Part shown: positions 42,481 to 48,910 of the stretch, in pieces
Layout of the letters: every line of letters begins with the position of its first letter
How positions within the stretch are numbered: position 1 is the stretch's first letter
Origin: Azotobacter chroococcum
GTDB lineage: Bacteria; Pseudomonadota; Gammaproteobacteria; Pseudomonadales; Pseudomonadaceae
Length of the DNA: 64,000 bases
Direction of reading: 5' to 3'
Assembly (NCBI RefSeq): GCF_004339665.1
Contig: NZ_SMMU01000010.1
Location: 62,001-126,000, forward strand
Position numbers and translations under genes: made by a program
The notes under the pieces: generated by a model
What the model saw: only the letters and a program-made list of their open reading frames with translations
What the model was told of the DNA's origin: nothing
The model's database searches: none

Positions 42481-42551
42481 GTGACCAGCTTTTCGCTTTT
42501 CGCCTTGCCTGAAAATCCGTCCCTCTTTCATCTGGAAACCCCGCGGCCTTG

Positions 42552-45014
42552 ATGCGTTTGCTTAAATTCTTCGGCTGGACTTTCGTCGCCACTTTCAGCA
42601 GCCTGCTGCTCGGTCTGAGCGGAGCCTTCCTCTATCTGGGACCCAGCCTTCCGTCGGCCGAATCGCTGCGCACCATCCAGTTGCAGATCCCCCTGCGGAT
42701 ATACAGCAGCGATGCCAAGCTGATTGCGGAGTTTGGCGAAATGCGCCGCACCCCCATCCGCTATGCAGACATTCCCCCGGACTTCATCCATGCCCTGCTG
42801 GCTGCGGAGGACGATAACTTCGCCAGCCATTATGGCGTTGACCTTGCCAGCCTAATGCGCGCTGCCACGCAATTATTGAGCAGCGGGCATATTCAGACCG
42901 GGGGCAGCACCATCACCATGCAGGTGGCGAAGAATTTCTTCCTGACCAGCGAGCGGAGCTTCTCGCGCAAGGCCAACGAAATCCTTCTTGCCCTGCAGAT
43001 CGAACGGGAACTCAGCAAGGAGGAGATCCTCGAGCTCTATGTCAACAAGATCTACCTCGGTAACCGCGCCTATGGCATCGAGGCCGCAGCCCAGGTCTAT
43101 TACGGCAAGCCCATCCGCGAACTGAGTCTGGCGCAGCTGGCGATGATCGCCGGCCTGCCGAAAGCCCCGTCGCGCTTCAACCCGCTGGCCAATCCGGCAC
43201 GCAGCAAGGAGCGGCGCGACTGGATCCTCGGGCGCATGCACAAGCTCGGGCACATCGACGAGGCCCGCTACCAGCAGGCCCTCGCCGAGCCTGCGGAAGC
43301 CAGCTATCACGTAGCCACTCCCGAGCTGAATGCGCCCTACATCGCCGAAATGGCCCGCGCCGAACTGGTCGGCCGCTATGGCAGCGATGCCTATACCGAA
43401 GGATTTCGGGTCACCACCACGGTTCCCAGCGACCTGCAGGAGACAGCCAGCATGGCCGTGCGCCAGGGGCTGCTCGACTACGACCGGCGCCATGGCTACC
43501 GCGGCCCCGAGGCTCGACTGCCCGGCACGAACAGGGACGCCTGGCTGGAGGAGCTGAACAAGCGGCGCATCATCAACAACCTCGAGCCCGCCGTCGTCAC
43601 CCAGATCGGCAGCAGCGCCATCCATGTCCTGACGCGCAGCGGCAACGAAGAAAAAGTGAGCTGGGAGAGCATGAGCTGGGCTCGCCCCTTCATCAGCGCC
43701 GACAGCCAGGGCCCCAAACCGCAGCAGCCGGGCCAGGTGGTCAAGATCGGCGACCTGATCCGCGTCCAGCGCCAGGAGGACGGCAGCCTCGCCTTCAGCC
43801 AGATCCCCGCCGCCCAGAGCGCCCTGGTTTCCCTGGATCCGCGGGACGGAGCCATACGCGCCCTGGTGGGCGGCTTCTCCTTCGAGCAGAGCCACTACAA
43901 CCGTGCCGCCCAGGCCAAACGGCAGCCTGGCTCGAGCTTCAAGCCCTTCATCTACAGCGCGGCGCTGGATCGCGGCTTTACCGCCGCCAGCCTGATCAAC
44001 GACGCACCGATCGTCTTCGTCGATCCATATCTGGACACGGTCTGGCGCCCGAAGAACGACACCAACACCTTCCTCGGCCCGATCCGCATACGCGAGGCCC
44101 TGTACAAGTCGCGCAACCTGGTGTCGATTCGCCTGCTGCAAAGCACGGGCATCGACTATACCCTCGACTACATCGGCCGCTTCGGCTTCGACAAGCGGGA
44201 CCTGCCGCGCAACCTGTCCCTGGCGCTCGGCACGGCCAACCTGACCCCGCTGGAAATCGCCGGCGGCTGGAGTACCTTCGCCAACGGCGGTTACCGCACC
44301 CAGCCTTACCTGATCGAGCGCATCGAAGATCGCGACGGCAAGCTCCTCTATCAGGCCAATCCGCCCCGCGTGCCGGGAGAGCAGCCGGCACCCGGCGCCT
44401 TCGTCAATACGTCGGCCGCCACCGAGGACTCAATACCAGACACCACCAGCGGCGACCTTCCGGAGAATGCCCAGCCGACGCCAGCCAGCCAGCCTCCCGT
44501 AGCGCCCGAGCCGATTGCCGCCGAGCGCATCGTCGATGCCCGCACCACCTACATCATGACCAGCATGCTGCAGGATGTGATCAAGCGCGGCACGGCCCGT
44601 CGCGCCCTGGAAATGGGGCGCAGCGACCTGGCCGGCAAGACCGGGACCACCAACGAATCCAAGGACAGCTGGTTCTCCGGCTACAACGCCGACTACGTCA
44701 CCACCGTCTGGGCCGGCTTCGACCAGCCGGAAAGCCTGGGCAGCCACGAATACGGCAGCACCGTGGCCCTGCCGATCTGGATGGGCTTCATGTCTGCCGC
44801 CCTGAAGGACAAACCGCCCCACCTGCAGGCCGAACCCGAAGGATTGCTGACCCTGCGCATCAACCCAAGCAGCGGCCGCATCGCCTCACCCGGCACCCCC
44901 GGAGCCTTCTTCGAGCTGTTCAAGAACGAGGCTCCGCCTCCCATGGCCAGCGAGGAGGAGTCCAGCCAAGGCAGCCTGGCGAAAGATTCCGCTCCGCCGA
45001 TCGACCTGTTCTGA
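42552..45014 (+). CDS. ponA: Penicillin-binding protein 1A, bifunctional peptidoglycan synthase
   Basis: 820 residues, class A PBP. N-terminal membrane anchor (about 5-28), glycosyltransferase domain with catalytic Glu86 in AAEDDNFASHYG and GGSTITMQVAKN, an OB-like domain, then the transpeptidase with SSFK (Ser461, Lys464) and KTGTTN from residue 696. It polymerises and crosslinks the cell wall. The ATG has only a weak ribosome-binding site. Divergent from pilM, as in P. aeruginosa; a bidirectional terminator separates it from maeB. Confidence 0.97.
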   Translation: MRLLKFFGWTFVATFSSLLLGLSGAFLYLGPSLPSAESLRTIQLQIPLRIYSSDAKLIAEFGEMRRTPIRYADIPPDFIHALLAAEDDNFASHYGVDLASLMRAATQLLSSGHIQTGGSTITMQVAKNFFLTSERSFSRKANEILLALQIERELSKEEILELYVNKIYLGNRAYGIEAAAQVYYGKPIRELSLAQLAMIAGLPKAPSRFNPLANPARSKERRDWILGRMHKLGHIDEARYQQALAEPAEASYHVATPELNAPYIAEMARAELVGRYGSDAYTEGFRVTTTVPSDLQETASMAVRQGLLDYDRRHGYRGPEARLPGTNRDAWLEELNKRRIINNLEPAVVTQIGSSAIHVLTRSGNEEKVSWESMSWARPFISADSQGPKPQQPGQVVKIGDLIRVQRQEDGSLAFSQIPAAQSALVSLDPRDGAIRALVGGFSFEQSHYNRAAQAKRQPGSSFKPFIYSAALDRGFTAASLINDAPIVFVDPYLDTVWRPKNDTNTFLGPIRIREALYKSRNLVSIRLLQSTGIDYTLDYIGRFGFDKRDLPRNLSLALGTANLTPLEIAGGWSTFANGGYRTQPYLIERIEDRDGKLLYQANPPRVPGEQPAPGAFVNTSAATEDSIPDTTSGDLPENAQPTPASQPPVAPEPIAAERIVDARTTYIMTSMLQDVIKRGTARRALEMGRSDLAGKTGTTNESKDSWFSGYNADYVTTVWAGFDQPESLGSHEYGSTVALPIWMGFMSAALKDKPPHLQAEPEGLLTLRINPSSGRIASPGTPGAFFELFKNEAPPPMASEEESSQGSLAKDSAPPIDLF

Positions 45015-46443: not shown

Positions 46444-47877
46444 CTAATATAAGACTTTCAGCCACTCTCCCGGACGTGGCTCAAGGTCCGGATAAAGATT
46501 GTTCAATAGCCGCAAGCGCATCACGGATGCCTCCGCCACCCCGCTGGCCTGACTGAATCCGGCCAGCCGCTGCCCCTCGCCGACCCGCACCCGGCGCAAC
46601 CGCAACGGCTGGGCCAGCTTCCGTTCGGTGTCCTGCAGCGGCCGGAAACTCCCAATCACCCGCAGAAAGTCAGCATCCGCCGCCCCCAGGCCGGACTTGC
46701 CCTTGAGCGCCGCCACGAACAGGAAGGCCTGGCGCTCCCGGTACAGGACCGCGACCCGCCGGGCTGGGGTACCGGGCATGAGGCCGGTATACCCCTGCAG
46801 CCCCTGCTGGCGCAGGGGGCTGCCCTCGAGCAGACGGCGATCGCCGATGCGCTGCTGCAGGAACGCCTCCGGCGCCAGCTGCGGATCGACGGGCTCCATG
46901 GTCATGGCGATCAGCCCCTGGCGATCCGGCATCAGCCCGACCAGCGCATCCGGCCGATTGAGCAGCGCCCAGCCCTGCGGAAAGCTCAGGGTGAAGTCCA
47001 GCGGGCCGTGATAGAAGGCCTGTCCGCGGACCACCCCCGAGGCCTCCGAATCGCCGAAGGGCAGGCCCTCGATCTGCTCGAGAAAGCCCTCCCGATTCAC
47101 CTCCTGGCGCACCGCGACCAGCCCCCGCGCAGACCCGACCACCTCATGCAGGCGCCGATCATTGTCCGGATGGCTGTCGAAGAGTCCGTGATAACCCGAC
47201 TCCGGCTGCGGCTCGCCGCGCTGGGCGGCCTCCTGGCGGGCAAAGTCCTCCTGGTTCTTCAAGAGCCGGACCACCGCGATCATTGCCTCGGGATCGTAGC
47301 CGGCCCGCGCCAGATACTGCGCGCCGAGGCCATCGGCCTCCAGTTCCATGTCCCGCCCGTAGCCGCGTACCAGGGCACTGCCGAGCATGCTGGTCAGATC
47401 GCCCGCCGCGCCCACCCCGGTACCGATGGCGATGACCTGGCTGACGATGCTCCAGGCGCTCGCCTGGCTCTGCTGGCGCACCCCGTGGCGCGCCGTGACA
47501 TGCCCGACCTCGTGACCGAGCACCGCCGCCAGCTCAGCCTCCGAATTGAGGTAGGCCAGCAGGCCGCGATGGATGTAGACATAGCCGCTGGGCAAGGCGA
47601 AGGCGTTCAGATCCGGCGAGTCGAGCACGGTGAAGCGGTAATCCAGGGCGCTGCGGTGACTGTAGCGGGCGACCCGCTCGCCGACCTGCTGCACATAGTC
47701 CTGCAGCCGCTCGTCGGCATAGCGCGGATATTGCTCGAGGACCTGCGGGTGGAGGCGACGACCGATCTCCAGTTCCTGACGCTCGCTCAGCATGACGAAA
47801 TCGCTGCGCCCACTGACCGGATTGGTCGCGCAACCTGCCAGCAACCCCAGCAGCAACAGGACCAGACATGGCTTCAT
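46444..47877 (-). CDS. M48-family metalloprotease lipoprotein
   Basis: 477 residues. A lipoprotein signal ends at LLAGC (Cys16), so it is periplasmic and membrane-anchored. The zinc site is HEVGH (122-126) with the third ligand Glu180 in MELEADGLG, as in BepA/LoiP-type peptidases that act in outer-membrane quality control. After the peptidase domain (to about residue 260) comes a long C-terminal region ending in a LysM-like segment (RVRVGEGQRLAGFSQASG). Its ATG overlaps the nuclease stop by four bases (ATGA), so it is coupled to that gene. Substrate unknown. Confidence 0.9.
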   Translation of the reverse strand: MKPCLVLLLLGLLAGCATNPVSGRSDFVMLSERQELEIGRRLHPQVLEQYPRYADERLQDYVQQVGERVARYSHRSALDYRFTVLDSPDLNAFALPSGYVYIHRGLLAYLNSEAELAAVLGHEVGHVTARHGVRQQSQASAWSIVSQVIAIGTGVGAAGDLTSMLGSALVRGYGRDMELEADGLGAQYLARAGYDPEAMIAVVRLLKNQEDFARQEAAQRGEPQPESGYHGLFDSHPDNDRRLHEVVGSARGLVAVRQEVNREGFLEQIEGLPFGDSEASGVVRGQAFYHGPLDFTLSFPQGWALLNRPDALVGLMPDRQGLIAMTMEPVDPQLAPEAFLQQRIGDRRLLEGSPLRQQGLQGYTGLMPGTPARRVAVLYRERQAFLFVAALKGKSGLGAADADFLRVIGSFRPLQDTERKLAQPLRLRRVRVGEGQRLAGFSQASGVAEASVMRLRLLNNLYPDLEPRPGEWLKVLY

Positions 47878-48674
47878 GGCGGCACCTCGAGCATCAGCGG
47901 ATGGGTCAGCGGCAGCATCCAGCGCATCTGCCCCCCGTCCATGCGCTCGCGGCGGGAGTGGTCGACCACCCAGCCGCGCGCCTCGATGTGCCGTCCCGGC
48001 AGGCGCTGCAGAGCGGGCAGGTCGAACAGGCCGAGCCGTTCCGGCTCGATGCGCAGGACCAGCGGCCCGTCCAGCTCGATCCACAGACCGCCGCGATTGC
48101 GCTCGACCCCGCTCACCCGCGCGCGGATCAGGGCAAAGCCGCCACGCTGCAACTGCTCCGGCGTCTTCCAGGCCGGGCGCCGCCAGAGCCCCTCCCGGGC
48201 CGCCCGCGCGTGGCGCTCGGCCTCCTGCAGACAGCCCGCCAGCGCCACGTTCGGCGTCATCGCCACCTGATAGCCTAGCCCCTCGGCAAGCAGCTGCGCC
48301 TCCCAGTTGCGCCCGCGCCCGTCATAGGCATGGGCCAGGGTGCGTCCATAGCGATCCTTGGCCTGAGTCCCCGGCTGCAGGCCGACCCACCTGTCGTTGG
48401 CTGTCACCAGTTGCCGCAGGCGCTCGCGCGCCGCCTCGGCAAAAGGCTCGGCAGGCCGCCCCCGGCGTTCGCGCTCCGGCGTATTGAGGCCGATCAGCCG
48501 CACGCGGCGACCGTCGGCGAGGCGCAGGGTATCGCCGTCCAGCACCTGCTCCACGCGAGCGGTCGACAGTTTGCCCGGTGCCGGACAGAACGCCTGGGCC
48601 GGAAATCCCCAGACGACGGAAACGAAAAAGGCGCCCGCGAGGGGCGCCTTTTTCAGCAGCTCGAAACAGTCCAT
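47874..48674 (-). CDS. Secreted thermonuclease (SNase-like) family protein
   Basis: 266 residues. Signal peptide with cleavage near PAQAFC (about residue 28), then a staphylococcal-nuclease fold: VEQVLDGDTLRLADGRRVRLIGLNTPE (two segments, DGDT at 46-49) and DRYGRTLAHAY, carrying the usual Asp, Arg and Glu active-site residues. The C-terminal 100 residues look like an added OB-type domain. The codons for residues 8-17 coincide with a perfect intrinsic-terminator hairpin, presumably that of rpmE 24 bases upstream. The next gene (M48 peptidase) overlaps by four bases. Confidence 0.88.
   Translation of the reverse strand: MDCFELLKKAPLAGAFFVSVVWGFPAQAFCPAPGKLSTARVEQVLDGDTLRLADGRRVRLIGLNTPERERRGRPAEPFAEAARERLRQLVTANDRWVGLQPGTQAKDRYGRTLAHAYDGRGRNWEAQLLAEGLGYQVAMTPNVALAGCLQEAERHARAAREGLWRRPAWKTPEQLQRGGFALIRARVSGVERNRGGLWIELDGPLVLRIEPERLGLFDLPALQRLPGRHIEARGWVVDHSRRERMDGGQMRWMLPLTHPLMLEVPP
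48625..48653 (-). terminator. Terminator hairpin inside the nuclease signal-peptide codons
   Basis: AAAAAGGCGCCC (48625-48636), loop GCGAG, GGGCGCCTTTTT (48642-48653): a perfect 12-bp stem, symmetrical, so on the minus strand it also ends in a run of T residues. It begins 44 bases after the rpmE stop, the right place for an rpmE terminator, yet lies within codons 8-17 of the downstream gene (KKAPLAGAFF). Confidence 0.8.
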
Positions 48675-48697
48675 CAGGCCGTCCTGGCCATCGGCGC

Positions 48698-48910
48698 TTA
48701 CTTGGCGCCGAACACACCGAAACGCTGCTTGAAGCGGTCGATACGGCCGCCGGTGTCGAGCACCTTCTGCTTGCCGGTATAGAACGGATGGCACTCGGAG
48801 CACACGTCGATGCTGAGGTTCTTGCCCAGGGTGGAGCGGGTCTTGATCACGTTCCCGCAGCTGCAGGTCGCCTCGATCTCGACGTAATTCGGATGGATAT
48901 CGGCTTTCAT
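48698..48910 (-). CDS. rpmE: 50S ribosomal protein L31, zinc-binding form
   Basis: 70 residues. Zinc ligands Cys16, Cys18, Cys37 and Cys40 mark the C+ form, used when zinc is available; a C- paralogue (ykgM type) is not in this window. [20 protein letters not shown] is the typical start. Divergent from priA, as in many gammaproteobacteria. Confidence 0.97.

Follow-up and report, generated by a model that had tools for sequence, protein, structure and literature searches.

An intrinsic-terminator-type hairpin behind rpmE that is written into the signal-peptide codons of a nuclease gene in Azotobacter chroococcum and its relatives

In a stretch of 64,000 nucleotides of Azotobacter chroococcum (NCBI RefSeq assembly GCF_004339665.1, contig NZ_SMMU01000010.1, positions 62,001 to 126,000; hereafter the window, numbered from its first letter) we found a hairpin of the intrinsic-terminator type that stands directly behind the ribosomal protein gene rpmE and, at the same time, within the open reading frame (ORF) of a nuclease, where its letters encode the core of a predicted signal peptide. 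The reading that we hold with good confidence is that this hairpin is the intrinsic terminator of rpmE with the nuclease frame running through it, i.e., that read-through would be obligatory for the full-length nuclease. The situation provides a clean natural example of the same letters being subject to two codes, as a folding terminator and as a readable signal peptide.

Anatomy of the locus and of the hairpin

The genes concerned are on the minus strand. The rpmE gene (48698 to 48910) codes for ribosomal protein L31, of 70 amino acids (Pfam PF01197, E 1.9e-32), and its stop codon is followed after 23 nt by the ATG (at 48674) of the nuclease, with a Shine-Dalgarno-like AGGA (48682 to 48685) located 7 nt 5' of this ATG. 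The nuclease ORF (47874 to 48674) has 266 amino acids and carries an SNase domain at residues 57–165 (PF00565, E 1.2e-17), the 64.8 bits obtained against a curated cut-off of 21 placing it in the SNase family; the two NCBIfam equivalogs that it matched were both under their cut-offs. Its stop codon shares the four bases ATGA (47874–47877) with the ATG of an M48 metalloprotease gene (46444 to 47877; PF01435, E 1.4e-39). Such a stop/start overlap is the usual pattern in translational coupling, and it means that the protease gene is also located downstream of the hairpin. A match to the nuclease at E ≤ 0.001 was found in 40 of the 57 genomes searched. We take PA5048 to be its locus tag in Pseudomonas aeruginosa, and a search for “PA5048” in the open-access literature gave no match.

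The first residues of the nuclease, MDCFELLKKAPLAGAFFVSVVWGFPAQA (48591 to 48674), have the architecture of a predicted Sec signal peptide (basic n-region, hydrophobic h-region, small residues at −3 and −1), judged from motif and hydropathy: the A.A motif is found in 59 of 73 homologues, and the best 10-residue hydropathy mean is at least 1.87 in all 73. A sigma-70 scan, in itself weak evidence, gave no promoter-like site near the nuclease start. Over this start there is also a mini-ORF, ATGGCCAGGACGGCCTGATG (five codons, ATGGCCAGGACGGCCTGA; 48672–48691, minus strand), whose TGA overlaps the nuclease ATG (TGATG); it was seen by eye in loci L001, L002 and L118, is absent from L036 and is probably due to chance.

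On the sense (minus) strand the hairpin reads GAAAAAGGCGCCC-CUCGC-GGGCGCCUUUUUC and lies 44 nt downstream of rpmE. The plus strand has AAAAAGGCGCCC-GCGAG-GGGCGCCTTTTT at 48625–48653, i.e., a perfect stem of 12 bp (7 G-C and 5 A-T) with a loop of 5 nt (48637–48641), and on the minus strand one more G-C pair (48654/48624) extends the stem to 13 bp (48624 to 48654). It encodes exactly residues 8–17 of the nuclease, KKAPLAGAFF, with the codons AAA AAG GCG CCC CTC GCG GGC GCC TTT TTC. The A-tract (48649 to 48653) corresponds to the AAA AA(G) of Lys8-Lys9 and pairs with the U-tract (48625 to 48629), whose five U are the TTT of Phe16 plus the first two letters of the TTC of Phe17. The original prediction, that a 12-bp perfect stem covers residues 8–17 just behind rpmE, with the A-run becoming Lys codons and the T-run Phe codons of a predicted signal peptide, was thus read correctly from sequence and translation. 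Across the 30 bases position i pairs with position 30-i, so that third codon positions stand opposite third positions, the register that leaves most freedom for paired silent change.

RNA folding gave the 13-bp stem as both the minimum free energy and the centroid structure. As to what is expected of an intrinsic terminator, the stem is GC-rich and well formed (13 bp with a loop of 5, where at least 5–7 pairs and a short loop are looked for), a U-tract of 5 U is found on its 3' side, and the position is behind a gene. A consensus terminator scan of the window did not list the site, because it looks for a T-run that follows the stem, and the T-run of this hairpin is itself paired, with the A-run. 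At the hairpin position no Rfam family reached the gathering threshold; elsewhere in the window, at 42528–42821 on the minus strand, RF02812 (asponA, anti ponA RNA) scored 148.3 bits against a gathering score of 113. The window sequence alone is moderately unusual (96 nt, z −1.79, with 7 of 200 shuffles folding equally well). What raises the hairpin above chance is the comparative tests, namely the pairing in relatives and the terminator score against synonymous recodings.

Pairing and codon choice among relatives

The sample consisted of 123 loci (80 rpmE loci, 30 nuclease loci and 13 further stretches), including three without an rpmE match and five repeats. In 28 distinct rpmE loci there was no same-strand nuclease match in the fetched stretch (L116 was left out of this set because the nuclease is present), and 24 of them had a terminator-like hairpin, located 9–45 nt past the rpmE stop in 23 cases and at 82 nt in one. 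Such a hairpin therefore belongs to rpmE, independently of the nuclease. Where rpmE and the nuclease occur together (86 distinct loci), the hairpin was found by the RNA criterion alone in 81, the nuclease frame was open through it in 80, and an ATG, GTG or TTG was located upstream in frame in 75. The RNA-criterion scan found no hairpin in L030, L036, L097, L112 and L115; a stem was nonetheless seen in L036, by a laxer scan in L030 and L097 and, with mismatches, only by eye in L112 and L115. The hairpin precedes the nuclease ORF in L096, while in L107 and L117 there is no start upstream of it, the likely start being downstream and the hairpin probably untranslated. In L116 (G049) and L117 (G041) a GTG at the end of the U-tract could start the nuclease, so that the hairpin would touch the gene and not enter it, a possible alternative arrangement.

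An in-frame core was shared by 76 distinct loci, those left from the 123 after setting aside the three without rpmE, the 28 without a same-strand nuclease, L116, 11 on the basis of the motif (a repeat among them) and four repeats. Judged by record title or group code they are mostly Pseudomonadaceae, with L029 and L113 belonging to other families of the order. Counted from the rpmE stop, the offset takes all three phases (59, 12 and 5 loci), and the nuclease frame has therefore not been inherited from rpmE. Over the 62 distinct rows that these loci provide, 99.1% of the 806 cells were paired. Two-sided changes were detected at 7 of the 13 pairs, in a total of 27 cells compared to a mean of 2.5 after shuffling, so that the stem turned out to be preserved by compensatory changes in relatives, which had been proposed as a check. 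As reference, none of 500 shuffles was as high on four measures and one was on a fifth, and when the partner was shifted by 1–3 columns the pairing fell to 47–74%.

Some of the paired changes are silent on both sides, as in the replacement of Lys AAG by AAA, accompanied in 6 of 6 cases by Ala GCC to GCT. Others involve the peptide: Gly changes to Ser (AGC) only with Leu (CTN) opposite (5 of 5 loci), Leu being also found opposite GGC in five loci as a U·G wobble pair, and in L061 K to R (AGG) came together with F to L (CTT), both amino acids being altered. Mapped onto a tree built from the mature nuclease (73 of the 76 rows, the three short-ORF rows being left out), the paired changes correspond to about 3, 4, 3–4 and 1 events, never in the opposite direction. 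When independent pairs were compared no single site was significant, there being too few pairs per site. In about half of the pairings at the Leu/Ser site the partner was the same. Judged from these alignments, the pairing of the stem is under selection in the relatives.

The constraint goes beyond the peptide. For each locus we generated synonymous recodings with its own codon usage, and scored terminators with the d'Aubenton Carafa formula. The score was positive in 76 of 76 loci versus a mean of 7.2% of the recodings (p < 0.01 in 71 of 76). Over the same loci the observed stems had a mean of 12.9 pairs, against 9.8 of 13 under recoding, and an energy of −21.3 against −12.3 kcal/mol. Against the same null, pair count alone reached p < 0.05 in 69 of 76 loci and p < 0.01 in only 14, energy alone p < 0.05 in 63 and p < 0.01 in 23, and energy and T-run taken jointly p < 0.01 in all 76.

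The codons point in the same direction. GCG was present in 76 of 76 loci, and the first Phe codon was TTT in 74 of 76, versus 22.5% of the Phe codons elsewhere in these loci. Fourteen loci have a G opposite the third letter of this Phe codon and 13 of them retain TTT although TTC pairs better and is commoner, indicating that the U-run is held for more than pairing; shorter U-runs are found in L061 (4) and L065 (3). Codon identity at conserved residues was 1.0 for GCG (first Ala), GGC (Gly) and the TTT of the first Phe, while the same residues elsewhere in the nuclease gene averaged 0.40, 0.41 and 0.49 (the value for Phe coming from one column). It was 0.85 for the second Lys and the second Ala, 0.69 for the first Lys and 0.50 for the second Phe, and the loop codon L5 of the same signal peptide varies freely (0.28). 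At the level of residues, mean identity was 0.81 over the ten core residues, 0.31 over the next 11 and 0.53 in the mature part. With these values the signal-peptide core looks conserved for the sake of the RNA, and the overlap would account for a near-constant part, among relatives, of an element that normally evolves fast.

Start codons, decaying genes and more distant loci

The nuclease start of the window is located 21 nt before the A-run, outside the stem. Among the relatives the best-scored start (73 of 76 loci) varies from 3 nt, i.e., directly at the A-run, to 39 nt before it; it abuts the A-run in 10 of 76 loci, and some ATG, GTG or TTG does so in 20 of 76. A Shine-Dalgarno match of at least 4 was found at only 31 of the 73 best starts. 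In 41 of the 76 loci some start codon (ATG in 13) is located within 12 codons after the core, and a later start may be used there. The window has none in that interval, the only usual start between the hairpin and the DGDT motif being a GTG near residue 41.

Three loci (L022 and the Pseudomonas oryzihabitans L045 and L048) are without ATG, GTG or TTG upstream in the nuclease frame, and possibly use a CTG start or carry a decaying gene. They have CTG where a GTG abuts the A-run in the similar L021, and an out-of-frame ATG mini-ORF whose TGA overlaps that CTG codon; in L048 the nuclease frame is in addition interrupted by a stop. Two relatives within Azotobacter are cases of loss. In Azotobacter vinelandii CA (L036) the nuclease is a relic, 52 codons from the core on, in which the stem is kept with a broken U-run (TTC TTC) and one A-U pair now G-C, the terminator score being only 8.1. 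In the Azotobacter genome G002 (L118) the nuclease is degenerate, 95 codons from the core on, with hairpin and U-run intact. Both retain rpmE, the hairpin stem and the signal-peptide codons, and as far as these sequences tell the hairpin-nuclease pair is coming apart in them. A further record of the genus (G003) has the sequence of A. vinelandii CA over the first 250 bases behind rpmE.

To the level of the order, a nuclease match at E ≤ 0.001 was present in 84 of 194 genomes. Among the matches listed we fetched 60 nuclease places from other families, leaving out places already in the sample, those in the family of the window, matches that were weak or second in their genome, and G086, G087 and G119. 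An rpmE match was located upstream in 57 of the 60, three being without it. Together with 11 earlier outgroups, which include four named records outside the family (Cellvibrio, Microbulbifer, Marinifaba and Oceanisphaera), these give 68 cases, kin loci being all counted without thinning and the scan extending as far as the DGDT motif. Of the 68, 47 had a strong hairpin located in frame with the nuclease; in 38 of the 47 a usual start follows the rpmE stop ahead of the hairpin, and in the other 9 there is none in that interval. In 19 of the 68 the scan gave no strong hairpin, and in 2 the hairpin comes before the ORF. Compared to synonymous recodings, 46 of the 47 in-frame hairpins had p < 0.05 and 40 had p < 0.01. 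They occupy all three codon registers (33, 11 and 3), the rarest being that of L107, L117 and L205. Many of the peptides resemble KKALxxSAFF and others differ (LKTPRARALGVFF, KKAPGQLWLGVFV, CKKNARSYMGRAFFLA, QKKRQVFLALFLF). The overlap has been kept in many distant relatives, frequently with a different hairpin.

Read-through, its alternatives and known systems

The anatomy, the frame, the conservation, the compensatory changes, the synonymous constraint and the breadth described above are the basis of the explanation that we prefer; that the hairpin terminates, how strongly it does so and that read-through makes the nuclease are what we infer from them. Transcripts from the rpmE promoter would mostly end at 48625–48629. 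When translated, A-tract, stem and U-tract would become the basic n-region and the start of the hydrophobic h-region, so that the same 30 bases would be under two constraints, the RNA having to pair and to end in U and the frame having to give K-K-A-x-x-x-G/S-A-F-F. As the hairpin comes after the start codon of the nuclease, any full-length nuclease mRNA has passed the hairpin, whatever the promoter; each one would be a read-through product, as probably would most of the mRNA of the ATGA-coupled M48 protease. Expression would be set by the leakiness of the terminator, as a low fraction of the passing transcription. For the same reason a promoter within rpmE is no bypass, and one behind the hairpin yields at best a protein without signal peptide. 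The original prediction had the nuclease arise by read-through or from an internal promoter; read-through fits, and the internal promoter has to be dropped, the hairpin being inside the ORF after the start codon.

It had also been proposed that the hairpin acts as a translation-sensitive switch, in which a ribosome starting the nuclease, or running on from rpmE, melts the hairpin and permits read-through. The window start 21 nt before the A-run with its AGGA, and the 20 loci where some start codon adjoins the A-run, are what one would expect of it, but the signs of a tuned switch are missing. RNAalifold on 34 of the 76 loci, from the last codons of rpmE into the mature nuclease, found the hairpin as the only structure. 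Pairing of the 5' arm with upstream RNA was below that of shuffled sequences (mean cost 3.7 versus 5.2 kcal/mol) and above its own null in 16 of 76 loci, and the distance from best start to hairpin spans 3–39 nt. In addition, the polymerase would need only about 50 nt from exposing the start site to clearing the U-tract, which would leave little time for initiation. We consider such a switch unlikely and not supported by these comparisons, although some effect of the ribosome is still conceivable. Slightly less probable yet is that the hairpin persists mainly because of a function in the nuclease mRNA, as an initiation gate, RNA protection or membrane mark, with termination being secondary. 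The 10 loci in which the best-scored start abuts the A-run, and is therefore at the base of the stem, would suit this role; in the window, however, the start is outside the stem, the same kind of hairpin is found in 24 of 28 rpmE loci without a following nuclease, and the U-run persists where a C would give better pairing, with TTT in 13 of the 14 loci that have G opposite.

Coincidence, i.e., a KKA...GAFF signal peptide that folds by chance in a GC-rich genome, is very improbable and we judge it refuted at the level of sequence. The peptide by itself does give about 9.8 of 13 pairs under synonymous recoding, but the 12.9 observed, the joint energy and T-run values in all 76 loci, the two-sided changes, and the recurrence of such an overlap with different hairpins, peptides and registers speak against it.

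Beyond the explanation of the hairpin as an rpmE terminator that has to be read through, we put forward tentatively a wider reading, which may well not hold. The overlap itself would be under selection across many members of the order. Lying within the signal peptide, the rpmE terminator would act as a fixed divider of expression and link a small output of the nuclease, which is periplasmic and potentially harmful, and of the coupled protease to ribosome synthesis; hairpin sequence and codon register would turn over while the overlap stays. Since poly-A is translated as Lys and poly-U as Phe whatever the frame, terminators with an A-tract and a U-tract would be ready-made signal-peptide cores, and so a route to export signals for genes located behind terminators, which is a testable idea.

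The pattern AAAAAG-N14-24-CTTTTT occurs at 21 places in this genome. When the frames were inspected by eye, only the rpmE-nuclease hairpin resembled the signal peptide of a gene that could be recognised. The case that comes nearest to it (MKKPPRGGFFVAAGG..., at L127) is situated between convergent genes, antisense to an ORF that we take to be lipoyl-synthase-like, and is probably not a gene; we do not claim a genome-wide habit. In a crude check of the argument from the code on 19 other distinct hairpins of the pattern, 107 of 114 frames were open, and 83 of 114 had K or R in the first three residues and a hydrophobic one among the final three, and were free of acidic residues beyond residue 3. 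Two identical terminator-like hairpins of 27 bases are located 1.2 kb apart (G000:C2:126184-126210 and 127371-127397; L125 and L126).

Intrinsic (Rho-independent) terminators are usually sought behind stop codons. The present hairpin resembles them in its GC-rich perfect stem, 5-nt loop, U-tract, A-tract in front and position directly behind a gene, and differs in being inside the ORF of the next gene and translated. Looking behind stop codons is also the usual practice according to PMC8355165. Methods that seek terminators only between genes would miss a case like this one, in which read-through would be obligatory for a gene whatever its promoter. Attenuators, as described in PMC2965389, are located between promoter and first start codon and work by alternative folds. 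Like these 5'-UTR terminators, the hairpin is ahead of most of the gene and would control the amount of transcription; unlike them it is past the start codon (inside the ORF in the window and in the 75 of 86 loci that have a usual start before it), belongs to the preceding gene and shows no conserved alternative fold, no antiterminator or conserved sensing structure having been found in the fold of 34 loci or in the 5'-arm accessibility of 76. In the main texts of two studies that mapped 3' ends, in E. coli (PMC7815308) and P. aeruginosa (PMC8297930), such ends are reported inside ORFs and 5' regions and some are ascribed to intrinsic termination, to which the candidate site inside the nuclease ORF can be likened; “rpmE” and “signal peptide” are absent from those main texts. 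Among the matches listed from the open-access literature we found no description of a terminator with signal-peptide codons, although this does not prove that none has been published. Terminators, attenuators and ORF-internal 3' ends are already known, and so are hydrophobic segments from T-rich DNA, since in yeast, as described in PMC7005711, translated T-rich non-coding DNA gives hydrophobic segments. There the ORFs arise de novo, while here the source is a bacterial terminator, the A-tract gives the basic n-region as well, and the RNA has apparently kept its own role.
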